A DNA stretch of 23,703 nucleotides from positions 1 to 23,703 of IMG/VR virus record IMGVR_UViG_3300010885_021803; one strand, written 5' to 3'. The DNA comes from a virus. Below are positions 439 through 16,610 of this stretch, in pieces (position 1 is the stretch's first letter; every line of letters begins with the position of its first letter). The position numbers and the translations under genes were made by a program. A model generated the notes under the pieces. The model searched no databases and was not told where the DNA came from. It saw only the letters and a program-made list of their open reading frames with translations.

Positions 439-1911
439 ATGGAACTCAGAAGCTATCAATATCGCGCCATAGACGAGCTACGCCAATCCCTCTTGGCGGG
501 GAATCGTAGGGTCGTCATCCAGTCACCCACCGGATCCGGCAAGACTGTCATCGCCGCTGCAATCGTGAACATGGCCCGTGACAAGGGCAAGCGGATCATC
601 TTCGCTGTGCCTGCGCTGAGCCTGATCGATCAGACGGTGGAGCGGTTCAGGCAGAACGGGATCTTCGAGATCGGCGTGATGCAGGGCCAGCACGAGATGA
701 CGGACTATGATCAGCCGGTTCAGGTCTGCTCAGTTCAAACACTGGCGCGGAGACAACCACCCAAGGCTGATCTGGTGATCCTGGATGAAAGCCATGTTAT
801 GTTCAAGCTTTATGATGACTGGATGAACCGGCCTGAGTGGAAGAAGGTTCCGTTCATCGGGTTGACCGCAACGCCCTGGGCGAAGGGTATGGGTGCGCCC
901 GGTCGCTGGGATGATCTGATCATCGGATCGACCCTGCAGGAACTGATCGAACTGGGCCATCTGTCAGACTTCCGCTGTTATGCTCCAGCCCATCCTGATC
1001 TGGCGGGGGTGAAGACAATCGCCGGGGATTACGATCCCAAGGGTCTGGGACATGCGATGGATAAGGCTCCGCTGGTCGCTGACATCGTCTCGACATGGCT
1101 GGAACGTGGCGAGAACCGTGCAACAATCTGCTTTGCTGTGAACAGGGTGCATGCAAAGCACATCCAGACCCAGTTCAGCGATGCCGGTGTGCGGGCTGAG
1201 TACATGGACGCCTACACAGATCTGGAAGACCGGGCCGACATCGTTCGCAGGTTCAGCAACGGCGATGTGCAGGTGATCTGCAACGTGGGTGTACTGACGA
1301 CTGGGTTCGATGCAGATGTGCGGTGCATCATTCTGGCGCGGCCTACTAAGTCTGAGATCCTGTATGTGCAGATGATCGGTCGCGGCCTGAGAACAGCTGA
1401 CGGGAAACAAAACGCACTGATTCTCGATCACAGCGACACCACAATGCGCCTTGGGTTCGTGACTGACATAGGAACTAACAAGCTGCACGATGGGGTAGCC
1501 AACAAGCAGACAGTCGAGAGAACAGCGCCACTCCCGAAGGAATGCCCCAAGTGCGCGTTCCTGAAGCCTCCGAAGACCCGCAAGTGCCCTTCATGTGGAT
1601 TTGAGGCTGTAGCTGTCTCTGAGGTCGAGAACCAGGATGGTGAGCTTCAGGAGCTTACCCGTGGAAAGAAGCTGAAGCCCAACGTCTACACGATGGTTGA
1701 CAAACAACGCTGGTACGCGCAACTTGTCCTGCATGCAGAACTGAGGGGCTATAAGCGCGGCTGGTCATACTGGGCTTACAAAGACAAGTTTGGCGTAGGC
1801 CCCGATAGCTCGCTACTGCATACTGCCGCCAGAGAAATATCACCAGAAGTCCAAAGCTGGATCACAGCACGGAACATCCGCAAAGCAAAAGCAAAGGAGA
1901 GAGCAGCATGA
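439..1911 (+). CDS. SF2 DEAD/DEAH-box helicase with C-terminal zinc-binding segment
   Basis: ATP-dependent superfamily 2 helicase of 490 aa, of the phage Rad3/ResIII-like type. Motif I SPTGSGKT is at residues 29-36, motif II DESH at 116-119, motif III TATP at 143-146, and motif VI QMIGRGLR at 311-318. A CPKC...CPSC pair (369-372 and 383-386) forms a likely zinc knuckle after the second RecA fold, followed by an aromatic-rich tail (about 420-450) seen in phage members. Phage enzymes of this type are thought to unwind DNA during replication or recombination. The reading frame is complete. The stop overlaps the next start as ATGA, so it heads a translationally coupled set with the small proteins and the primase. 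Confidence 0.93.
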   Translation: MELRSYQYRAIDELRQSLLAGNRRVVIQSPTGSGKTVIAAAIVNMARDKGKRIIFAVPALSLIDQTVERFRQNGIFEIGVMQGQHEMTDYDQPVQVCSVQTLARRQPPKADLVILDESHVMFKLYDDWMNRPEWKKVPFIGLTATPWAKGMGAPGRWDDLIIGSTLQELIELGHLSDFRCYAPAHPDLAGVKTIAGDYDPKGLGHAMDKAPLVADIVSTWLERGENRATICFAVNRVHAKHIQTQFSDAGVRAEYMDAYTDLEDRADIVRRFSNGDVQVICNVGVLTTGFDADVRCIILARPTKSEILYVQMIGRGLRTADGKQNALILDHSDTTMRLGFVTDIGTNKLHDGVANKQTVERTAPLPKECPKCAFLKPPKTRKCPSCGFEAVAVSEVENQDGELQELTRGKKLKPNVYTMVDKQRWYAQLVLHAELRGYKRGWSYWAYKDKFGVGPDSSLLHTAAREISPEVQSWITARNIRKAKAKERAA

Positions 1912-2126: not shown

Positions 2127-2385
2127 TCCAGCTAAATGCCACTGCGGCTCCATCAGTTGGGAGCGCAACATTGAAGATAGCCGATACATCTGCGCCAGTT
2201 GCAAGCGGCCCCTGTGGCAACCGATAGACACCGCGCCAATGGATGGGACTACAGTTTTGGGATATGACCATGGCTGGCGTGGAACAATTCGCTATTGGCG
2301 TGGGCCAAAGGTATGGGTGGATGAGATAGATCAGCATTGTTACCCATCTCATTGGATGCCACTTCCAGAGGGACTGGGCAAATGA
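2119..2385 (+). CDS. DUF551-like small phage protein with CxC/CxxC zinc-like head
   Basis: Protein of 88 aa. The start at 2119 is preferred over the in-frame ATG at 2083 because it has a GGAGGGA ribosome site and only a short overlap with the previous gene. The N-terminus carries CHC (residues 7-9) and a CASC motif, a possible zinc site. The rest, WQPIDTAPMDGTTVLGY through HWMPLPEG, matches the layout of DUF551-type phage proteins, which typically end in a THWMPLPEPP-like phrase. Function of that family is unknown. It ends in an ATGA overlap with the primase. Confidence 0.78.
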   Translation: MTDPAKCHCGSISWERNIEDSRYICASCKRPLWQPIDTAPMDGTTVLGYDHGWRGTIRYWRGPKVWVDEIDQHCYPSHWMPLPEGLGK

Positions 2386-3317
2386 CTGGCGCTAGAGATA
2401 TCGCTAAGGGCCGGTGGAAAGAGATCTTGCCCGCCCTGGGCGTCGATGCCCAGTTCCTGCAAAACCGTCATGGTCCATGCCCCATATGTGGCGGGGCTGA
2501 CCGCTTCCGCTGGGATGACCAGAACAGCGAAGGTGGGTTCATCTGCTCACAGTGTGGCGGGGGCGACGGGTTCAGGCTCGCCGGTCGCGTCACTGGACAG
2601 ACATTCAAGCAGCTAGCCGACAAGGTGGAAGAGATGCTTGGACACAGCAATGACTACCGCGGTCCTGTTGGCGACATCGAAGAGCTTCGCCAGCGGGAGA
2701 AAATGAAAACCGTCTGGGAAGCCTCAGGAAGCCCCAGGATTGGTGGCCCGGTGGATGGATACCTAGAAGCCCGAGTTGGCTGTCTGTGGCCTTCTCAGGC
2801 GATCCGTGAAGGCATCTACGGGCAGCACTCCGTCATGGTCTGCAAGATCGTGGATCATGCGGGTGAAAGAGCCGTGAATCTGCATCTCACAATGCTGACC
2901 GATGACGGGCAGAAAGCCAACTTGGACGTAGCAAAGCGCGTCATGAAGGGGAAGCTGCCTGATGGGTGCGCGATCCGGCTGGGTCCAGAGAAGGCTGTGA
3001 TGGGTGTTGCGGAGGGCATTGAGACCGCCATCAGCGCCGCCATCATGTTCGATATGCCGGTTTGGGCCTGCATAAATGGGACGCTGCTATCCAAATGGAT
3101 ACCCCCCGCCAAGGCAGAGCAGATCACGGTTTTTGGCGATAACGATGCAAATTATACTGGTCAATCAAAGGCTTACCATCTCGCAAATCGCCTAGAGGTT
3201 CAGTACAAGCGGCGCGTTGTAGTGGCGATTCCGCCCCTACAGGGGGATGACTGGAATGATCATCTACATAAAACTCGGGGTCAAAACGGGGCGAGTTTCC
3301 TGCGGATTGTGAAGTAG
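2382..3317 (+). CDS. DNA primase, zinc-ribbon plus Toprim
   Basis: Protein of 311 aa starting at the ATG that overlaps the previous stop. An N-terminal zinc ribbon has C33-P-I-C36 and C55-S-Q-C58, with GGADRFRW between and GGGDG after, as in P4 alpha/T7 gp4-type primases. The Toprim fold follows: VAEGIETAISA with the catalytic Glu at 211, and the DND metal-binding motif at 253-255 in TVFGDNDAN. There is no Walker A helicase half, so it is a stand-alone primase and the separate upstream SF2 protein may supply unwinding. It synthesises RNA primers at the phage fork. It ends the plus-strand replication operon at a tandem repeat and a hairpin. Confidence 0.92.
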   Translation: MTGARDIAKGRWKEILPALGVDAQFLQNRHGPCPICGGADRFRWDDQNSEGGFICSQCGGGDGFRLAGRVTGQTFKQLADKVEEMLGHSNDYRGPVGDIEELRQREKMKTVWEASGSPRIGGPVDGYLEARVGCLWPSQAIREGIYGQHSVMVCKIVDHAGERAVNLHLTMLTDDGQKANLDVAKRVMKGKLPDGCAIRLGPEKAVMGVAEGIETAISAAIMFDMPVWACINGTLLSKWIPPAKAEQITVFGDNDANYTGQSKAYHLANRLEVQYKRRVVVAIPPLQGDDWNDHLHKTRGQNGASFLRIVK

Positions 3318-3995: not shown

Positions 3996-4283
3996 TCAGA
4001 CCCCCTTCGCTTTGCACAGAATGTCGATAGACTTCTGGATTTCAGTGTCCAAACGGTCCCGGTCCCCACTGTTGTGAGCGAGCGCGATGGCCTCCAGTGC
4101 CGCTAACATCTCTGGCGCGGCGACCAGAATGCTCACGTTGTTTTCGGTCCTATGGGTCATAACCCGGCAGATCGAAACATCCCGGTCGGGATCCTGTGAC
4201 CGAATATAGGTAGAGTTATGCACCCATTTGGTGTGCCAAGGTCCCGGTGTATGTGGTAGCCGCTGCGGTACGTAGTGTTTCAT
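3996..4283 (-). CDS. Phage protein of the HTPGPW...LVAAPEMLAALE type
   Basis: Protein of 95 aa. The ATG at 4283 overlaps the stop of the methyltransferase-like gene (ATGA) and has GGGGGA just upstream; an in-frame ATG at 4295 is less likely. It begins MKHYVPQRLPHTPGPWH and later has ILVAAPEMLAALEAIA, the two hallmark phrases of a very common small phage family annotated as hypothetical. The function of the family is not established. The remainder is polar and helical. Confidence 0.8.
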   Translation of the reverse strand: MKHYVPQRLPHTPGPWHTKWVHNSTYIRSQDPDRDVSICRVMTHRTENNVSILVAAPEMLAALEAIALAHNSGDRDRLDTEIQKSIDILCKAKGV

Positions 4284-4864
4284 ATTTTCCCCCATTGTTC
4301 AGCCATTGCATCGGCGATCCCGCTGAATGTTGCAGATCGAATCTTCCACCGGTCAGCGGACGGTGGGAGATTGTACCATTTGGGCAGACTGCGCCCTGAT
4401 TTGGTGACATGCCGCTCACCATGACCAACCATGTCAGTCGGGACCAGCGAAGGCAGATCTTTGAGCCAGAGGCATGTGGTCTTCGTCGCCTCATGACCAA
4501 ACATCCAAGGCTGGATGATCTGGTCCGGTTTTCTAATGCGGCTGGATATGATTGACACTGGGTTTTCCAGTGCAATGCGCGGGATGGGAGCCGCTAGCAG
4601 TGTCCGCACGAATGCGAGCGCCTCCAGTTGCTCCTGTACCTTGTCCTTGAACCAGCGGGCTCCGCTGACCGCCAGATGGGTGCATGGCGGATGGGCAACC
4701 ATCAGGTCCCAGCCATCATGCAGACGGTCCAGCACGTCACCCTGATGGTGATATGCCGGGTCCGCATCACAGGGCAGCAGATCGCAGGACCAAGCGTCAT
4801 GACCTCTGGCGCGGAAAGCATCCCGCACTGTTCCAGAGTACTCACAGGCGATTAGAACGCGCAT
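4280..4864 (-). CDS. DNA cytosine methyltransferase-like protein (short form)
   Basis: Protein of 194 aa. The start at 4864 gives MRVLIACEYSGTVRDAF, a Rossmann/SAM-binding-like opening, behind an AGGGG site. Motif IV-like HPPC is at residues 58-61, with Cys61 as the candidate nucleophile, and ENP at 100-102 matches motif VI of C5-cytosine methyltransferases. The family's full enzymes are usually more than 300 aa with a target-recognition domain; this one is short and has no obvious recognition domain, so activity and specificity are unknown. It may protect phage DNA from host restriction. It lies in a tightly packed operon of small accessory genes. Confidence 0.75.
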   Translation of the reverse strand: MRVLIACEYSGTVRDAFRARGHDAWSCDLLPCDADPAYHHQGDVLDRLHDGWDLMVAHPPCTHLAVSGARWFKDKVQEQLEALAFVRTLLAAPIPRIALENPVSIISSRIRKPDQIIQPWMFGHEATKTTCLWLKDLPSLVPTDMVGHGERHVTKSGRSLPKWYNLPPSADRWKIRSATFSGIADAMAEQWGKI

Positions 4865-5103
4865 GGGATAAGCCCCTGCTGTTCCATCGCGCCCAACAGC
4901 ACGGGATATGGGTCGCATTGGGTGATTTGCCAAAGCTCTAAAATCTCTGCGTTATATTGCTCCGCTATTTTGCGTGGCAGTGGGGGCGAATATTCGCGGG
5001 AATGGAGAGTCGGATCCATGCCTATGCCAATGGTCCGAATCCATTTATCGGCGATATATTTGGCGCGGCGATCTAATTGTTCTGCTGTTTTCTGTAAGCT
5101 CAT
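4852..5103 (-). CDS. Small protein of unknown function (83 aa)
   Basis: The ATG at 5103 overlaps the stop of the upstream gene (ATGA) and has GAGGGGG upstream. The protein is helical, with basic N-terminal and Trp/Tyr-rich central segments (AEQLDRRAKYIADKWIRTIG, then ILELWQITQCDPYPVLLGAM). Its end overlaps the methyltransferase-like start by 13 bp. I do not recognise a family. Confidence 0.7.
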   Translation of the reverse strand: MSLQKTAEQLDRRAKYIADKWIRTIGIGMDPTLHSREYSPPLPRKIAEQYNAEILELWQITQCDPYPVLLGAMEQQGLIPCAF

Positions 5104-6461: not shown

Positions 6462-7193
6462 TTAAGCAGCTATCGCATAATCGCGCACAACGAATCCGCT
6501 CTTATCGCGCTTTGCCTTGTTTCCCTTAGGCGTTAACGCCACAACGACTCCGCGCCCGTCTAAGTGGCGAAGATCATGCTCATCGCCGTCAATTGTGGGA
6601 AAGCCATTCCATGTTGCGGGGCGCGTTCCTGCAAACACAACGGCGACACTTCCCCCGGCGCGCAATATTTCAACGCATTGCGACTCGTTTTTCTCACTAT
6701 GGGAAAATGTCAAATGATAATTTGCGGGAAACTTTCCCTGAGCATGTGCTAAAGCTCGTTTAAAGCTTTTCGTGTAGTCAGTGAATTGAATTGCGGGAAA
6801 CGACTCCATCATAGTCGCGCCGCTTTCATCCCTAATGGCTTCAAAGGCGATATCGGTAGACCCATTCGGGCGGATGCAAAGTTTAAGGCTAGCCTTTTCC
6901 GCTTGGCGCATTGTGGCGTTAATGGCGCGCCACATATCGCGCAAATAGCTTTTCCGATCTTTCATAAAGCGGCGCGCCTTGGCAATGCGCGATAACATGA
7001 CTGAGGGATAATAGACGGCCGCCCCTGATTCCGCGCCAAGGCAAAGCGCTTTGCATCCATCGCTAGCGTCGCCGCAAAGATTGCCAACGCCTGCTAGTGT
7101 ATAGGGCGCCATATAGTGAATCCCATTCATCCATCCCTTTTTGATCGCTTTGATTGCTTTGGGATTGTCTACCGAAAAGATTCTGTTTTTCAT
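6462..7193 (-). CDS. Conserved phage protein with a Cys cluster, function unknown (243 aa)
   Basis: Starts MKNRIFSVDNPKAIKAIKKG behind a CGGAGTCGGATC leader. Key features are a cysteine cluster C40-x6-C47-x3-C51 (LCGDASDGCKALCLG), RPNGSTDIAFE, a QFTDYTKSF phrase, NYHLTFSHSEKNESQ, and a C-terminal DLRHLDGRGVVVALTPKGNK. I recognise this arrangement from an uncharacterised family that recurs in phages and plasmids, but cannot name a reaction. The Cys pattern recalls Gp37/Gp68-like or radical-SAM-like proteins without being a canonical CxxxCxxC. Its promoter is shared with the divergent gene bank at 7374. Confidence 0.75.
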   Translation of the reverse strand: MKNRIFSVDNPKAIKAIKKGWMNGIHYMAPYTLAGVGNLCGDASDGCKALCLGAESGAAVYYPSVMLSRIAKARRFMKDRKSYLRDMWRAINATMRQAEKASLKLCIRPNGSTDIAFEAIRDESGATMMESFPAIQFTDYTKSFKRALAHAQGKFPANYHLTFSHSEKNESQCVEILRAGGSVAVVFAGTRPATWNGFPTIDGDEHDLRHLDGRGVVVALTPKGNKAKRDKSGFVVRDYAIAA

Positions 7194-9495: not shown

Positions 9496-10116
9496 ATGGC
9501 TAGCGATACAAGCGCACAATCAAAGCCCATAAAGCTAAAAGGCGAGAGACGCTATAGCGGGAGAGAGCACCGGGAACAATTGCAAGCTATTGTCCCTGAG
9601 GTGAAGGCAAAGCGAATAGCACTAGAGAAGGAATACAAGCGAAAGCCCTATAGCAGGGAAGCTTTCTTGTCAGTGTGTGAGCGCATGGCGCATGGGGAAA
9701 CAACGTCAGAGGCATTGCAGTCTGAGGGAATAGCACCATCGACGTTTTATGGATGGATGGAAAGAGAGAGTGAAGAATCCGAAGAACTTCGGAGCATATT
9801 CGGGCGCGCGCGCTACGCTCTAGCTGAAGCGGCATTTTCTGAGGCATTACAACGCTCTAGGGCCTTGATGGATGAGCCCGACATTGACTCTGCACGTGTT
9901 GGCGCGGCGCGCCTGCTAGTCGATACTCTCAAATGGTATGCGGAGCGATTGAACCCGCGCCAATACGCCATGCAACGCATTGAACCCGTAGCGCAGACCG
10001 TTCACAACGTGACCAACAATCTGACGATAGACGCACAATCCCTTGGCGCGGATCAGCGCAGCGCATTGCGGACTGCATTAATTGCAGCCCGTGACCATAA
10101 GATTATCGACAACTAA
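9496..10116 (+). CDS. terS: Terminase small subunit, Sf6-like
   Basis: Protein of 206 aa behind AGGGGAATTCC. After a basic N-terminus, residues about 55-85 form a helix-turn-helix (FLSVCERMAHGETTSEALQS, then GIAPSTFYGWMER), followed by the helical segment ALAEAAFSEALQRS and RVGAARLLVDTLKWYAERLN PRQY, the layout of Sf6 gp1-like small terminases (DNA-recognition HTH plus oligomerisation core). It selects phage DNA for packaging and presents it to the large subunit, encoded about 1.2 kb downstream. The wide gap between terS and terL, with unusual repeats, is noteworthy because packaging sites often lie in or beside terS. Confidence 0.88.
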   Translation: MASDTSAQSKPIKLKGERRYSGREHREQLQAIVPEVKAKRIALEKEYKRKPYSREAFLSVCERMAHGETTSEALQSEGIAPSTFYGWMERESEESEELRSIFGRARYALAEAAFSEALQRSRALMDEPDIDSARVGAARLLVDTLKWYAERLNPRQYAMQRIEPVAQTVHNVTNNLTIDAQSLGADQRSALRTALIAARDHKIIDN

Positions 10117-10241
10117 ACTAAAGCATAAGCACACAAAACTAAACTAAACTAAACCTTAGCCAACTAAACGTGTGAGTTTCTTACATAGTCTCACCGCTCT
10201 AGTATACAGCTAAGTTTAGTTTAGTGCTTATGCTTTAGTTT
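10115..10241. repeat. Long imperfect inverted repeat directly after terS
   Basis: An 18-nt segment at 10115-10132 (overlapping the terS stop codon) is the exact reverse complement of 10224-10241. Inside it, CTAAACTAAACCTTAGC (10144-10160) pairs with 10209-10224 with a one-base bulge, and the arms are built from CTAAA units. A third small hairpin GTGAG/CTCAC sits in the loop. It could form a large cruciform or RNA hairpin: a terminator, RNase III site, or part of a packaging signal. Confidence 0.85.
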
Positions 10242-10591
10242 CCACAGTTTAGTTTTAGTTTCCAAGGTACCTCAGGCATCACCCACCCTATGCCCCGGTC
10301 CAGAGGAGGCCCCCAGGTCTTAGGTACCAAATCCCCTCAAACATAACGCGCCATATATTGCGATCCCCACCCCATATGCACATAATACATACCCATACTC
10401 CCCCCCCCCGGTCCCCACCCTGTAGGTACCTGCTCTCTATACAGTGCGGCTTAGCGCGCTACCCCAGCATAGGCCATAGGTATACCCCCCCCGGTACCCC
10501 CGGTCATAGGTACCCCTGTATTGGGTCCCTCTGTAGATAGTTAGCTTATGGGGTAACTAGTTGTGACATTCCCCGCCAGTGGTGTGGCGGA
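10242..10591. repeat. C-rich non-coding stretch with five GGTACC sites
   Basis: No supportable gene. GGTACC occurs at 10266, 10323, 10435, 10493 and 10509, mostly as AGGTACC; I noticed no other copies in the window. The plus strand is strongly C-biased with a run of 10 C (10400-10409) and one of 8 C (10485-10492). The clustered 6-bp palindromes look like binding sites for a dimeric protein, TerS being one possibility. Confidence 0.75.
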
Positions 10592-10607
10592 TGTTTCACG
10601 TGAAACA
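10592..10607. promoter_or_regulatory. parS: parS site 1 (ParB/Spo0J-type centromere)
   Basis: TGTTTCACGTGAAACA is a perfect 16-bp palindrome, identical to the canonical chromosomal parS bound by ParB; the dyad extends one base each side (10591-10608). ParB clamps load at such sites in a CTP-dependent way and are moved by ParA. No parA or parB lies in the window. Confidence 0.93.
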
Positions 10608-10888
10608 TTTGGAGTCCGTTGCCCCTTTTGCAGAGCTTCGATGGAGCCCCCGGCACGGACAAACACCAGGCGAATTGGTGTGGTGGGGACCGGCCCCTGC
10701 AACAAGCCCGGCCCCCAATGCCAAAGAGGGAGCTGCCAAGCGCTCTCCAGCAAACCCAGTATACCCCACTGGCGGGGATGTTTGAAGCTAAATGATGGGC
10801 TGGCGGGCTTCCAACATCTTGATACCCCGGTGCGCACCCAGGATCTCACCGGCCATTCCGGCCATCAACGGTTGTCTACCACACCCAA
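10608..10888. other. Non-coding stretch between the two parS sites
   Basis: About 280 bp with no convincing gene. Open frames exist on both strands, but none has a ribosome site plus protein-like composition; the longest plus-strand frame owes its VSRET phrases to the parS sequences. The stretch is C/G rich like the preceding region. Confidence 0.6.
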
Positions 10889-10904
10889 TGTTTCACGTGA
10901 AACA
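10889..10904. promoter_or_regulatory. parS: parS site 2 (ParB/Spo0J-type centromere)
   Basis: A second exact copy of TGTTTCACGTGAAACA, 297 bp from the first and directly abutting the stop codon of the minus-strand microprotein gene. The flanks differ from those of site 1 beyond the shared A/T pair, so it is not a simple duplication of a longer segment. Confidence 0.93.
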
Positions 10905-11057
10905 TCAATAGCAGGTCGTATTGCACATGCTGCCTGTGCAACAAGTTGTGCAGGTTGTTAATTTTCCGTTAACGTAGTAGGTGTGTGTGGTGCATGAAGC
11001 ATAAGCTATAGCAGGTAGCATTGTCATGCCCAAGATAGCTATGATGATTTTGCGCAT
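10905..11057 (-). CDS. Cys-rich exported microprotein (50 aa)
   Basis: ATG at 11057 with AAGGGGGAATGCA upstream. MRKIIIAILGMTMLPAIAYA is a classic Sec signal peptide (basic n-region, hydrophobic core, AYA cleavage site). The mature part of about 30 residues starts SCTTHTYYVNGKLTT and continues CTTCCTGSMCNTTCY, with six Cys and many Thr. I recall similar CTT...CTTCC...CTTTC peptides among proteobacterial and phage hypotheticals; function is not known. Its lone antisense position in the terS-terL gap, ending exactly at parS site 2, suggests a moron-like cassette. Disulfide-bonded or metal-binding periplasmic roles are possible. Confidence 0.72.
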   Translation of the reverse strand: MRKIIIAILGMTMLPAIAYASCTTHTYYVNGKLTTCTTCCTGSMCNTTCY

Positions 11058-11138: not shown

Positions 11139-11300
11139 ATGCCAAAAAATGTTTCTAAACGTCGCTGGAAAGCGCGGCTTATGCTCGGCAAATGGATTCC
11201 GTCCATGGTGATCTATCATTACGGCTTTGATGACCTGTACGGAGATGTTCTAGTTCATCACCCCGAAATGCCCTTTTACAAGATGGCCCCAAAGCTATGA
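11139..11300 (+). CDS. Small basic protein before terL (53 aa)
   Basis: Start at 11139 (MPKNVSKRRWKARLMLGKWI) behind AACAGGGGGCTGCTC; the upstream frame has no ribosome site. The stop overlaps the terL start as ATGA, so translation of the two is coupled. Strongly basic N-terminus, then a Tyr/His/Asp-rich segment (VIYHYGFDDLYGDVLVHH). No family recognised; packaging accessory role is only suggested by position. Confidence 0.68.
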   Translation: MPKNVSKRRWKARLMLGKWIPSMVIYHYGFDDLYGDVLVHHPEMPFYKMAPKL

Positions 11301-13018
11301 CAACGCTTACGCTCGACGGCCAGCAGATCGACATCGAGCGGCAGCTTGCTGAACTTGACCGTGTAGACTGTGAAGAGAGCCTTTACACATTCCTGAAGCA
11401 CTCATGGAAATACATAGATGCGTCACCCTTCACCGAGGGCTGGCCCATTGAAGCTATAGCGGAGCATTTGCAAGCCGTAGCTGATGGCGAGATCCGCAGG
11501 CTCATCATCAACATCCCGCCACGTATGGGCAAGTCGTCCATTACCTCGTGTGCGTTTCCTGCGTGGGTATGGGCGCAGTCTCACACCAGTCCAACCTCTG
11601 GCGCGGGTGTTCAGTTCCTGCATGCCTCATACGCTCAGCAGTTGTCCCTCCGTGATAGCGTCAAATGCCGCCGCCTCATCGAAAGCCCCTGGTATCGCAG
11701 CCTTTGGGGTGACCGTTTCAAGCTGACCTCTGACCAGAACACCAAAGGGCGCTTTGACAATGACCGCAATGGTTCGCGTCTTTCCACGTCCGTGGGGTCC
11801 GCTCTTACTGGTGAAGGCGGCTCTATCATTGTTGTCGATGACCCCAATGCAGCGCAAGAAGCCTTCTCGGAAGCTACCATTGCATCGACCATCGAATGGT
11901 GGGATGGCGCGCTCTCGACCCGCCTCAACGATCCCAAAACGGGTGCCTTCGTCGTTATTCAGCAGCGGCTCTCAGAAGAAGATCTAACCGGCCATATCAT
12001 GTCCAAGGACGAGGGCGAGTGGACGCATCTCTGTCTTCCAATGAGATACGAATGGTCCCGGCATTCCGTTACTTCAATTGGTTGGAATGACCCCCGTGGC
12101 TGCGATGACGACGGGGAGCCTTTGGTTGAGGTGGATGAAGACGGCAACCGCATAGCCATCAGCCCTGATGCTCAGGTTGAGCTTGACGACCGCGAAGGTG
12201 AGCTTCTTTGGCCGGATCGTTTTGGTGAAACGGAAGTTGTGATCCTTGAAAAGCAACTTGGCCCTTGGTCTGCCGCTGGTCAGCTTCAACAGCGCCCAGA
12301 ACCCAAAGGCGGCGGCATTATTAAGCGTGAGTGGTGGCAACCTTGGGAGTCTACGACGTTCCCGAGTATGGATCTTATTATTGCTACGCTAGACACCGCA
12401 TATACGGCCAAGACTGAGAACGATCCGTCAGCCATGACAGTATGGGGCGTATTTACAAGTGATATCTCCGTTCAAGCGCCCAGTCATGCCGGTAGCCGCC
12501 ACGGAGACCGTATGGACTACGCCCGGCAATACACAGAGACCGCGCCAAGGGTTATGTTGATGCATGCGTGGCAGGGCCGCTACGAGCTGCATGATCTTGT
12601 CCTCAAAGTCTCCGAGACTTGCCGCCGCCTCAAGGTGGACACCCTCCTCATCGAAAACAAAGCCGCTGGTCATTCCGTTGCCCAGGAAATTCGCCGGATG
12701 TACGGGCATGAAAAATTTGGCGTCCACATGTTTGACCCAAAATCCCAAGACAAGCTGGCGCGGCTGTATTCGGTTCAGCACCTATTCGCCGAGGGACTGG
12801 TCTTTGCCCCCATTCGCCAGTGGGCCGAGATGGTTATTGCTCAGGTGGGCCAGTTCCCCAAGGGCAAGCATGACGACCTTGTTGATACCGTAAGCATGGC
12901 TATGAGGCATTTGCGCGAGACTGGAGCCATCATGCGCGGTGACGAGTTCAAAGCTGAACTTAGCGATAGCTTAGCATTTAAGGGCAACAATCAATGGCAG
13001 CCGCTCTATCCAATTTAG
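11297..13018 (+). CDS. terL: Terminase large subunit (ATPase and nuclease)
   Basis: Protein of 573 aa. The ATPase half shows a Walker A variant PPRMGKS (74-80), Walker B IIVVDDP (177-183) and the coupling-motif region VVIQQRLSEEDLTGH (about 219-233). The RNase H-like nuclease half shows the acidic residues in ATLDTAYT, LLIENKAAG and GKHDDLVDTVSMA. This is the packaging motor and headful/cos nuclease that docks on the portal. Length and motif order are normal for the family, and no frameshift is visible. It begins in an ATGA overlap with the small basic gene. Confidence 0.95.
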   Translation: MTTLTLDGQQIDIERQLAELDRVDCEESLYTFLKHSWKYIDASPFTEGWPIEAIAEHLQAVADGEIRRLIINIPPRMGKSSITSCAFPAWVWAQSHTSPTSGAGVQFLHASYAQQLSLRDSVKCRRLIESPWYRSLWGDRFKLTSDQNTKGRFDNDRNGSRLSTSVGSALTGEGGSIIVVDDPNAAQEAFSEATIASTIEWWDGALSTRLNDPKTGAFVVIQQRLSEEDLTGHIMSKDEGEWTHLCLPMRYEWSRHSVTSIGWNDPRGCDDDGEPLVEVDEDGNRIAISPDAQVELDDREGELLWPDRFGETEVVILEKQLGPWSAAGQLQQRPEPKGGGIIKREWWQPWESTTFPSMDLIIATLDTAYTAKTENDPSAMTVWGVFTSDISVQAPSHAGSRHGDRMDYARQYTETAPRVMLMHAWQGRYELHDLVLKVSETCRRLKVDTLLIENKAAGHSVAQEIRRMYGHEKFGVHMFDPKSQDKLARLYSVQHLFAEGLVFAPIRQWAEMVIAQVGQFPKGKHDDLVDTVSMAMRHLRETGAIMRGDEFKAELSDSLAFKGNNQWQPLYPI

Positions 13019-13278: not shown

Positions 13279-15603
13279 ATGCCAATGACGCCGGGGCTCA
13301 TGGGGAATATTCGGCAAACGCAGCCTAAACAAGAGGCTCTTGGCGACAGCGAAGCCATTGTTGAAATCATTGACGACGGCCAAGATACTGAAAAAACTGA
13401 TAAAAGTGGCGCTATCCTTGAAATTGAACACGCAGACGGGTCAATCACCATTTCCCTGGATGGGAAGCCTATTGATGACAACCGCGCAGAGCGTGATGAG
13501 ACCGACTGGTACCGCAATCTGGTCGAGGATGTTGCCGAAAGCCACCTAAACGGCATTGCACAGGAGCTTTTGCGCGGCATTCGAGACGATATCCAGAGCC
13601 GAAATGATTGGATTGAAGACCGGGCGCAGGGAATTAAACTTCTCGGTCTTAAGATTGAGATCCCCGGCTTGCAGGGTGCGTCTGACGGCGCGCCGATTGA
13701 GGGCATGTCTAAGGTCCGACATCCGCTGCTGCTTGAAGCAGTGCTGCGATTCCAAGCCAATGCGCGTTCTGAACTGCTGCCCACCGATGGGCCGGTCAAA
13801 ATTCGCAACGACAACAACAACGCAACCCTTCAAAACGACCAGTTAGCCAATGCGTTGGAGAATGATCTCAATCATTATCTGACTTCAACGGCTACAGAGT
13901 ACTATCCCGACACGGATCGCATGCTTCTCATGCTCGGCTTTGGCGGTACAAGCTTCAAGAAGGTCTATTTCTGCCCGTTGCGCAATCGCCCAGTGTCTGA
14001 AAGCGTTGATGCAAACGATTTGATCGTCAATAACAGCGCGACGGACCTTAGGAACGCCAAAAGGATCACCCATCGGTCCTATATGCGTCCCAGCACCGTC
14101 AAAAGGCTCCAAATTCTTGGTGTTTACCGCGACATTGACTTATCTACACCCAAAGAGCCGGATCTTGACAGCGTTCAACGCGAAAAGAACGCTCAACAGG
14201 GCATTGCAATGGGGTCTATGAACCCTGATGACCGTGATCGTGAGATCTATGAGGTCTATTGCGAGCTAGATTTGGTTGGATTTGAGCATAAGCACAAGAA
14301 AAAGCCTTCTGGCCTTGAGATCCCATACATCGTGACCATCGATGTGTCGTCTCAGCAGGTTTTATCGGTGGTTCGCAACTATGCCGAGGATGATCAAGAG
14401 CTTCCGGTCGCTAAGCGCCGCTTTGTTAAGTACACTTTTGTGCCTGGGATGGGCTTTTATGATATTGGCCTGCTTCACATACTTGGCAATACGACAAACG
14501 CTATTACGGCTGCTTGGCGTGAGCTGCTAGACGCCGGTATGTACAACAATTTTCCCGGCTTCCTTATGGCGGATACCGGAGCCCGGCAGAACACCAACAT
14601 ATTCCGGGTTCCTCCTGGCGGGGGTGCTTTGGTCAAAACAAATGGCATGCCCATCAATCAAGCCATCATGCCGTTGCCGTACAAAGAGCCCTCTGGAGCC
14701 CTAATGAACCTTGTCGTTCAGATGGCTGAGACCGGCATGCGCGTTGGCGGCACCTCTGAGGTCATGGTGACCGAGGGCAAGCCTGATGCGCCCGTGGGAA
14801 CGACGCTCGCTATGATCGAGCAGGCTCAGAAAGTTCTAAACTCAGTCCACAAGCGCCTTCACGCAGCTCAATCTGAAGAATTTGAGATGTTGGTTGAGTG
14901 CTTCAAAGAACATCCTGAGAGTTTTTGGCAGAAGCGCCGGAAAGCTGCATACCCTTGGGACGAAAAGACATTTGTGGACGCTTTGGACAATTACTATTTT
15001 GTCCCACAGGCGGATCCCAATACGTCGAGCCAGACCCAGCGCCTGATGAAAGTTCTGGCTCTGAAGCAGTTGGTCGCTTCTAATCCGGCTCTTTATGACC
15101 CGATTGCGGTTGATACAGCGGCGCTACAAGCCCTTGGCTGGTCTAATCCGCAACAGTTCATGATCCCGCCGTCTGCGCAGGGCAAGCCCCCGCCAGAGCT
15201 TATGCAGGCCATGGCGAAGATGCAGATCGACAAGAGCAATGCCGATGCGCGCATGATGGATAGCCAAACACGCGCCCAGGATGCTCAGGCCCGGATTGAG
15301 CTGGACCACATGCGTCTTCAGATGGAGTCAAGCCGCGATCAGGGCGACCCCGCCAAGATGGCGCAGGTCCAGACGCAGCAGATGGAAATCCAGCAGCGCA
15401 ATCAAGACACGATGTTTGACGCCATCAACCGCAAGCGTGACCGCGAAAGCCGTGAGCGTCTTGCCGCCATTAAACTTGCTGAAGAGGTTATGCGTAACCC
15501 CGATGGGTTAGCTACAGCTCAGCAGTTTATCGATCCTCAAATGCTTCAGCGTCTGGAGGGCAATGAGCCCACTCTGGATGGCACCAAGACTGGAGAACTG
15601 TAA
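13279..15603 (+). CDS. Portal protein, large P22-like type
   Basis: Protein of 774 aa immediately after terL, the usual portal place. Residues 70-600 are the portal core: WYRNLVEDVAESHLNGIAQE, RHPLLLEAVLRFQANARSEL, a MLMLGFGGTSFKKVYF turn, and GTTLAMIEQAQKVLNSVHKR, which matches the stem/clip-to-crown helices of P22-like portals. The last 150 residues are Gln/Met/Ala-rich coiled coil (from about KMQIDKSNADARMM), like the C-terminal barrel of P22 gp1, whose length (725 aa) is similar. The dodecameric portal is the DNA channel at one capsid vertex. AGAGGAATAACTTCT precedes the start. Confidence 0.9.
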   Translation: MPMTPGLMGNIRQTQPKQEALGDSEAIVEIIDDGQDTEKTDKSGAILEIEHADGSITISLDGKPIDDNRAERDETDWYRNLVEDVAESHLNGIAQELLRGIRDDIQSRNDWIEDRAQGIKLLGLKIEIPGLQGASDGAPIEGMSKVRHPLLLEAVLRFQANARSELLPTDGPVKIRNDNNNATLQNDQLANALENDLNHYLTSTATEYYPDTDRMLLMLGFGGTSFKKVYFCPLRNRPVSESVDANDLIVNNSATDLRNAKRITHRSYMRPSTVKRLQILGVYRDIDLSTPKEPDLDSVQREKNAQQGIAMGSMNPDDRDREIYEVYCELDLVGFEHKHKKKPSGLEIPYIVTIDVSSQQVLSVVRNYAEDDQELPVAKRRFVKYTFVPGMGFYDIGLLHILGNTTNAITAAWRELLDAGMYNNFPGFLMADTGARQNTNIFRVPPGGGALVKTNGMPINQAIMPLPYKEPSGALMNLVVQMAETGMRVGGTSEVMVTEGKPDAPVGTTLAMIEQAQKVLNSVHKRLHAAQSEEFEMLVECFKEHPESFWQKRRKAAYPWDEKTFVDALDNYYFVPQADPNTSSQTQRLMKVLALKQLVASNPALYDPIAVDTAALQALGWSNPQQFMIPPSAQGKPPPELMQAMAKMQIDKSNADARMMDSQTRAQDAQARIELDHMRLQMESSRDQGDPAKMAQVQTQQMEIQQRNQDTMFDAINRKRDRESRERLAAIKLAEEVMRNPDGLATAQQFIDPQMLQRLEGNEPTLDGTKTGEL

Positions 15604-16610
15604 TGGCTTTTGGTCTTCCCTCCGCAGAGCAAATGCGTGATTATCTGATCAGCCAAGGCGTTGATCCAGTTGTAGCTACTGAACGAGCAAACGTGGCCGC
15701 TCGCCAGAATGCTGCGCAGGCAGCTCGCACATCTGCTCTTAGTTTGGCGGCTGGTGCTGCTCCCGCACGTGCGGCTGGCGCGGCTGCTGCTGAAGCTGCT
15801 CCGGCAATTGCCCGCTCTGCCATGGGCATAGGCGAGAGAATTGCTGCTGCTCCGCGCCAGGCATGGGAATTTTTAACAAGGCCCGCAGAGGTTTTAAGAA
15901 ACCCGTCAACTGGAAATTTGATTCAAAATGTTGCCCCCGGCAAAGGAATGCCATTGCCCCGCCCGGATCTTCCGTGGGGCGTTAAGATCCCTGTATTTAC
16001 GCCTGCTCAGCGCGCTACGCAGGGCACCGTTGGCGGCTTGGCTCTTGGCGCGGGCGCTACTGGCGTTGGCGCATTGGCTGACCGGCCTACTGCTGCGCCG
16101 CCGCCCGTCATACCTGCGGATGGGACTATATCCGGTGAAGGCTATGGTTCTCGTTATGATCAGGCCATGGCAGACGGTTCTATATCTGGTGAGCAATATG
16201 GCGAACGCGCCAACATGCTTGCTGCCAGAGCTTTAGGCGAAGCTGCGGGTCTTCCTATGCGGCGTCCATCTGCTGCGCCTTCTTTGGAAAGCCGCCAAGC
16301 TGCCGCTCAAACAATGGCTGACAGGGCACCCGCGCCAATGCGCCGCCCTGATGAAGGCATTCTTTCCCGCATTTTTTCTGGGCAAGATTACCAGTCCAAC
16401 AGCAGGCCGGTAAACGAGCCCATGGGTGGTGCGCCGGTTAACTGGGGCAACTCCGACAGCGCTGCTGATTTCTTTCGTGCTGACAAGGCGTTAATGGCCA
16501 AGCGCAGGGAAGAAGAAGGCATGAAGCGTGGCGGGGCCGCCAACGCCAAACCTGATTCGCTTCACAAAGCCCTTGAGATCATCCATCACCTTCTGACCCG
16601 CAGTCATTAA
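15603..16610 (+). CDS. Ala/Pro-rich virion-associated protein (335 aa)
   Basis: Start overlaps the portal stop (TAATG). The N-terminal 35 residues are helical (SAEQMRDYLISQGVDPVVAT), then a long Ala-rich stretch, a Pro-rich linker, and two copies of a G(T/S)ISGE(G/Q)YG phrase near residues 175-200. The C-terminus KPDSLHKALEIIHHLLTRSH resembles a short conserved helix I associate with proteins in this position of related phages. Low complexity prevents family assignment. Position between portal and scaffold suggests an internal head or ejection protein. Confidence 0.7.
   Translation: MAFGLPSAEQMRDYLISQGVDPVVATERANVAARQNAAQAARTSALSLAAGAAPARAAGAAAAEAAPAIARSAMGIGERIAAAPRQAWEFLTRPAEVLRNPSTGNLIQNVAPGKGMPLPRPDLPWGVKIPVFTPAQRATQGTVGGLALGAGATGVGALADRPTAAPPPVIPADGTISGEGYGSRYDQAMADGSISGEQYGERANMLAARALGEAAGLPMRRPSAAPSLESRQAAAQTMADRAPAPMRRPDEGILSRIFSGQDYQSNSRPVNEPMGGAPVNWGNSDSAADFFRADKALMAKRREEEGMKRGGAANAKPDSLHKALEIIHHLLTRSH

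Follow-up and report, generated by a model that had tools for sequence, protein, structure and literature searches.

Two parS sites in a phage packaging region

The window, that is, the whole stretch of DNA analyzed here, is a 23.7-kb fragment from an IMG/VR virus record (IMGVR_UViG_3300010885_021803; 23,703 nt) in which a region with two exact copies of parS, the bacterial centromere site, is preceded by replication genes and followed by the start of the late operon. The features that bear on the interpretation of these sites are as follows:

439-1911, plus strand: helicase, a replication gene left of the parS region (phrog_16 / phrog_510 pair with the primase)
2337-3317, plus strand: primase, a replication gene left of the parS region (phrog_16 / phrog_510 pair with the helicase)
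9496-10116, plus strand: terS, small terminase subunit (phrog_1482, E = 1.7e-16)
10592-10607: parS site 1, exact 16/16 TGTTTCACGTGAAACA; extended palindrome ATGTTTCACGTGAAACAT
10608-10680: cassette-end sequence right of site 1 (flank family 0), which adjoins parS also in loci L004, L009, L012, and L013
10889-10904: parS site 2, exact 16/16 TGTTTCACGTGAAACA
10905-11057, minus strand: small ORF of 50 aa, rich in cysteine and with a start resembling a signal peptide; its stop codon directly adjoins site 2
11139-11300, plus strand: small 53-aa ORF, the end of which overlaps the beginning of terL; members of its family occur in 11 or more loci of the window's group
11297-13018, plus strand: terL, large terminase subunit (phrog_38, E = 1.7e-85), the query for collecting relatives
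13279-15603, plus strand: portal protein, first gene of the late operon, to the right of the parS region (phrog_1216, E = 5.5e-28)

The consensus for chromosomal-type parS is the 16-bp tGTTtCACGTGAAaCa, and both sites in the window score 16/16, with a start-to-start spacing of 297 bp. The preliminary description of this DNA reported two perfect copies with differing flanks between terS and terL, and considered a chance match very unlikely. The two copies were verified at the positions given above, context alignment bore out the difference between the flanks, and shuffled sequences yield an expectation of only 0.11 sites even at up to 3 mismatches, a level at which no further site was found in the whole 23.7-kb window. 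The placement between the terminase genes is also upheld by the PHROG matches, but the gap is not empty, given that it holds the two conserved small ORFs. Homologues of the cysteine-rich ORF, 50-54 aa long, were found in loci L003, L006, and L020, with identity across the family ranging from 53 to 94%; Pfam and PHROG searches gave no match for either ORF. The left flank of site 2, which abuts the stop codon of the cysteine-rich ORF, is common to L003 and L004. The left flank of site 1 is common to L003 and its right flank to L004, L009, L012, and L013, and this sharing of flanks with different loci points to site 1 being a mosaic joint. The extremes of the GC skew of the window sit elsewhere, so that the skew does not indicate an origin at parS.

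Conservation of parS among relatives of the window

Using TerL alone as the criterion, we collected 80 relatives of the window from viral contigs. Nearly all of those that combine TerL identity of at least about 80% with enough upstream DNA carry 1-5 exact parS copies upstream of terL, the exceptions being L017, L018, and L030; about 30 relatives with similar TerL have 1-5 exact copies in the same interval as the window. Below about 78% TerL identity, many relatives lack the site, which therefore is dispensable; a search for replacement palindromes in the relatives without parS found none. Where terS is on the same contig, nearly all parS sites fall within the terS-terL interval, and whole-record scans of relatives of up to 61 kb found no exact or one-mismatch parS outside this stretch.

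An alignment of 89 distinct contexts is conserved over the 16 bp only, together with a purine immediately before and a pyrimidine immediately after the palindrome, whereas the flanks are close to random. A census of palindromic 16-mers in the TerL-selected loci returned 81 exact copies of parS in 28 loci, compared to 3 copies of the runner-up. On the TerL tree, the presence of parS is accounted for by 9 changes, as opposed to 24 when the labels are shuffled, and parS is present in 22 of the 24 rows that make up a well-supported set; parS therefore was inherited over deep divergence, with several losses and gains. Counts of parS across the entire IMG/VR (at least 120 contigs per pattern except for the reversed palindrome) are weak evidence, and the TerL-selected sets were used instead.

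A second group of phages and Pelagibacter phage HTVC027P

Many contigs matched by the palindrome alone encode a TerL only 27-29% identical to that of the window, and in many of these, the palindrome is located just upstream of terL. We re-collected this second group by its own TerL, disregarding the palindrome: 51 of the 76 loci have an exact parS no more than 200 bp upstream of terL, most often at a distance of 108 bp from the start codon. Across 28 distinct rows of the group, the 16 site columns are 100% conserved, compared to about 0.4-0.9, with few at 1.0, for the flank columns. Many second-group phages have a single parS site; in 11 loci, a companion, TGTTCCACGTGGAACA, which is the symmetric T5C-A12G form, lies 24 bp from parS. 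Conservation in related phages had been named beforehand as the test that could refute the significance of the two palindromes; both TerL groups keep the site, and with 81 exact copies in 28 loci of the first group and sites in 51 of 76 loci of the second, the conservation exceeds chance and points to selection.

The nearest cultured relatives of the second group are Pelagibacter phage HTVC027P (63% TerL identity) and its kin. HTVC027P contains CGTTTCACGTGAAACA, the T1C form, at 16412-16427, between terS (15254-15781) and terL (20471 on). No site at up to 2 mismatches was found in the cultured TerL relatives MW202675, CRP-901, Pkon1, HTVC023P, 023Pt_psg01, DSL-LC04, and Pag-Yong1. In some second-group loci, for example, L513 and L525, an inverted repeat, TTGCCTA-N5-TAGGCAA, adjoins parS on its right side, upstream of terL, and is possibly another operator or a hairpin.

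Cassette anatomy of the terS-terL gap

In the relatives of the window, the gap is filled by small minus-strand genes and tRNA genes, and the order at the sites is the stop of a minus-strand gene, parS, a ribosome site, and the next gene. At 23 of the 81 sites, the minus strand has a ribosome site and a start codon 11-17 nt beyond the palindrome, versus 1 site for the plus strand; a stop codon abuts the palindrome at 13 of the 81 sites on the minus strand and at 3 on the plus strand. Some sites of this group are embedded in C-rich DNA away from any gene start. Flank families are recombined across loci, such that a given left flank is paired with various right flanks and vice versa. Blocks of homology end at the site in both sequences in 73 of 557 cases, compared to 1.9 for random placement, a ratio that is an upper bound, given the tendency of alignments to terminate at exact matches. 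In the window's group, the parS sites are boundaries of exchangeable minus-strand gene cassettes.

Repeated linkers between genes are familiar from the T4-type PeSL mobile regulatory cassettes and the start-associated sequences of cluster K mycobacteriophages. As in those systems, a short repeat is positioned here between a stop codon and a ribosome site, among shuffled small genes; the difference is that the linker in the window is exactly the host ParB site.

The tRNA genes in the gaps (Gly-TCC, Gln-TTG, Pro-TGG, and Ser-TGA) are on the minus strand and often adjoin parS; they occur in L006, L009, L016, L019, L020, L023, L024, L027, L031, L032, and L046. A role of tRNA genes as attachment sites was considered and rejected: relatives have tRNA genes in their gaps, the window has none, and no integrase was found. 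Also encoded on the minus strand is a protein family with a twin-arginine-like signal (MIASRRGFLAG...), represented by L005:700-1428 and homologues in L003, L007, L008, and L012, often with parS on both sides; Pfam and PHROG searches gave no match for it. A search for known RNA families yielded none above the threshold.

Partition genes and lysogeny

Profile searches, in which the controls behaved as expected, covered 17 virus records from the window's group, 8 from the second group, and 4 cultured relatives for ParB_N (PF02195), and 24 virus records from the window's group for ParA (PF13614) and tyrosine integrase (PF00589); none of these domains was detected, many of the records being fragments. 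The preliminary description noted that no parA or parB was visible, and this observation holds for the window record, where the ParA profile search was negative, and ParB was absent by reading and by PHROG matches. Thus, neither parA nor parB of a phage-encoded ParABS system was found. Plasmid-prophages of the P1, N15, and mycobacteriophage RedRock type encode their own ParA and ParB and use their own site sequence; the window resembles them in carrying a centromere-like site on a phage genome, but neither par gene was found in it. The search for PF00589 gave no indication of a lysogenic or plasmid state either. Segregation as a plasmid-like prophage, also envisaged in the preliminary description, is disfavored because partition and integrase genes are missing, and the cultured relative HTVC027P is described as obligately lytic (PMC12753301).

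Site variants and the host ParB

Burkholderia ParBc1 binds this parS sequence and tolerates changes only at positions 1-16 and 5-12 (PMC5450999), and the Caulobacter consensus, t/cGTTt/cCACGTGAAAca, allows C at positions 1 and 5 (PMC7022226). Variants at tolerated positions in the phages include T1G (L201), T1C (HTVC027P), A16G, and T5C-A12G (the 11 second-group loci with the companion), and most of the phage variants (T1G, T1C, T5C, and A12G) fit the positions tolerated by ParB. ParBc1 does not tolerate changes at the central positions 7-10, where nine sites of the window's group and its fringe depart from the consensus; the related phages L050, L055, L057, and L059 have only a central-variant site each.

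One relative with 70% TerL identity sits in a betaproteobacterial metagenome-assembled genome (MAG). Its phage contig contains GGTTTCACGTGAAACA, and the MAG chromosome carries the gidA-rsmG-parA-parB array, with an exact parS inside gidA; in the family to which the MAG belongs, 30 of 41 genomes have 1-3 exact parS, versus 0 for the reversed control. The MAG, a candidate host by binning of this one relative at 70% TerL identity, thus carries the parS sequence of the window on its chromosome. The chromosomal parS of the ParABS systems in Burkholderiales and Caulobacter resemble the arrangement in the window in having the identical 16-bp palindrome in several sites within 1-2 kb; in contrast to these, the sites in the window are found in a packaging region rather than at a chromosomal origin, with no phage parA or parB.

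parS-like sites in unrelated phages

Bacillus phage phi29 (EU771092) contains four one-mismatch sites, TGTTTCACGTGGAACA, one of which (17243) directly follows the stop codon of gene 16. According to the work of Meijer et al. (2005, EMBO J), as recounted in PMC9437464, the host ParB, Spo0J, traps the phi29 genome in spores. Like the phage in the window, phi29, which is virulent and, by the same account, uses the host ParB, is free of parA and parB and has several copies of parS-type sites. Unlike in phi29, where the sites are scattered and the host sporulates, the sites in the window are confined to the terS-terL interval and mark cassette joints, and its likely hosts, of the Proteobacteria type, do not sporulate. 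Among phi29-like gut contigs, six exact or one-mismatch copies are present in L091 (G034), and two exact copies and one with two mismatches in L131 (G057); the phi29-like gut phage sequence MT835854 (L555) also has several exact or one-mismatch copies. These sites are possibly linked to entrapment in spores of gut Firmicutes.

Another case is a 117-kb GC-rich phage contig (G125, also L166; IMGVR_UViG_3300037518_000322), the terminase of which has actinobacteriophage proteins, among others, as its nearest matches. It contains 24 sites at up to one mismatch (23 TGTTTCACGTGGAACA and 1 exact), all of them in two tracts of small minus-strand genes at 91.7-95.7 kb and 105.8-112.4 kb. On the gene strand, a stop codon lies upstream of 16 of the 24 linkers and a start codon downstream of 18, compared to 5 and 2, respectively, on the other strand, and all 23 asymmetric copies have the same orientation relative to the genes. 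An HU-like gene is located among these linkers. A profile search for ParB_N found none in phi29, L091, L131, or G125, phi29 serving as the positive control for parS-like sites. As in phi29, parS-like sites are present in the phage of the window without a ParB of its own.

Probable recruitment of the host ParB and its alternatives

That the host ParB binds the phage parS sites is, on sequence grounds, very likely, and the best reading of the sites in the window is that they are, probably, functional loading sites for this protein. Recruitment of the host ParB is the best explanation because the sites are identical to the universal ParB site, most variants follow the tolerance pattern of ParB, no phage ParB is found, and phi29 provides a precedent. 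Capture of the host ParB had been put forward in the preliminary description, and the comparisons lend it strong support: canonical parS recurs in two distant TerL groups in which no phage ParB was found, most of the variants are at positions tolerated by ParB, and the betaproteobacterial MAG has an exact parS. Against this reading stand the nine sites with central changes, the lack of parS in many relatives below about 78% TerL identity, and the assignment of the host by binning of a single relative. In addition, a symmetric ParB dimer does not require the uniform orientation of the sites in G125, which copying of the linker along with the gene would explain.

Under this scenario, upon infection, ParB-CTP clamps of the host would load at the parS sites and slide over the adjoining DNA, that is, terS, the accessory cassettes, and terL. 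The resulting complex could tie the phage genome to the host ParA and SMC, such that it would be placed and segregated like the host origin, while ParB on the cassettes and at the start of the late genes would damp their expression until replication of the phage dilutes ParB; by analogy with the phi29-Spo0J case, such damping could be a brake or a deferment. Tethering to ParA/SMC jointly with damping of the nearby genes might be the most likely consequence of ParB loading, a proposal that we make with some hesitation. That cassettes are exchanged at the sites is probably a side effect, no other exact homology being repeated in this rapidly evolving stretch.

Several alternatives merit consideration. 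The parS sites could be local regulatory elements where bound ParB or another factor controls transcription of the cassettes and the late operon, with no placement of the genome. The gene starts on the minus strand at 23 of the 81 sites (1 on the plus strand), the position about 108 bp before terL in the second group, and the start codon after 18 of the 24 sites in G125 all fit this possibility, as does the influence of the ParB-family proteins KorB and Pseudomonas aeruginosa ParB on transcription described in published work, including PMC7022226; the sites of the window's group in C-rich DNA without a near gene start do not, and we regard regulation of this kind as a serious but somewhat unlikely explanation. 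Slightly less probable, in our estimate, and on the whole unlikely, is that the phage copies, as their number rises, act as a sponge, titrating the host ParB and stopping chromosome segregation and division. With 1-3 exact sites in genomes of the host family and 1-5 per phage, tens of phage copies would swamp the host, extra parS slows the growth of Burkholderia (PMC5450999), and G125 has as many as 24 sites. The exact position, however, would be irrelevant for a sponge, whereas both TerL groups keep the site in a set place (the terS-terL interval in the first, mostly position -108 relative to terL in the second), and many second-group phages have a single site.

Alternatively, the palindrome could be kept for cassette exchange, by short-homology annealing or through a recombinase, its identity with parS being secondary. 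This possibility is in line with the re-pairing of left and right flanks across loci, the content of the cassettes (tRNAs and small genes), and the excess of homology blocks ending at the site, overstated as it is by the attraction of ends to exact matches. It appears improbable, however, given that, of the 65,536 possible 16-bp palindromes, the phages have exactly parS, that much of the second group has a lone site at a fixed place without cassettes, and that no PF00589-type recombinase was found in 24 virus records of the window's group. More doubtful still is an RNA hairpin, UGUUUC-ACGU-GAAACA, in the leaders of minus-strand mRNAs that would act on translation or processing: the central variants in the window's group all keep the 6-bp stem, the T5C-A12G pair is compensatory in RNA too, and the sites adjoin ribosome sites, but the 16-mer alone reaches only -3.9 kcal/mol, with flanks included, three of four stretches do not fold better than shuffled sequences, the stem shows no free covariation, and a universal RNA-binding partner would be required for the sequence to act alike in phages whose hosts are unrelated. 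Finally, chance or stray host DNA, in favor of which we found nothing, is refuted by the conservation in loci chosen via TerL alone.

Implications for phage-host interaction

ParB is among the most conserved DNA-binding switches of bacteria and, to our knowledge, apart from phi29, no phage has been shown to exploit it; a literature search, conducted outside most subscription journals, found no report of phage parS without ParB. Given that parS is conserved in lytic phages whose hosts are common in fresh water and in the sea, viruses would seem to read or hijack the chromosome segregation machinery. It is conceivable, if rather speculative, that many lytic phages, among them relatives of the globally abundant pelagiphages, carry the host centromere as a widespread strategy, with ParB at the early/late junction serving both as a tether to the segregation machinery of the host and as a copy-number-sensitive brake on accessory and late genes released by replication-driven dilution. 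HTVC027P on Candidatus Pelagibacter HTCC1062, a cultured phage with published infection transcriptomes, offers a directly testable system. The anatomy of the linkers, in turn, gives a physical account of the shuffling of accessory cassettes in one phage region.

Other features of the window

Directly after terS (10115-10241), the window contains a perfect 18-nt inverted repeat (AAACTAAAGCATAAGCAC) and TAAAC repeats; the inverted repeat is possibly a terminator or a replication element. It is followed at 10380-10500 by C-rich DNA that includes C runs as well as GGTACC/GGTCCC motifs, and similar tracts are found in the gaps of relatives. Farther to the left, the minus strand encodes a GP88 family protein (6462-7193; PF17338) and a DNA methyltransferase (4280-4933; phrog_757).
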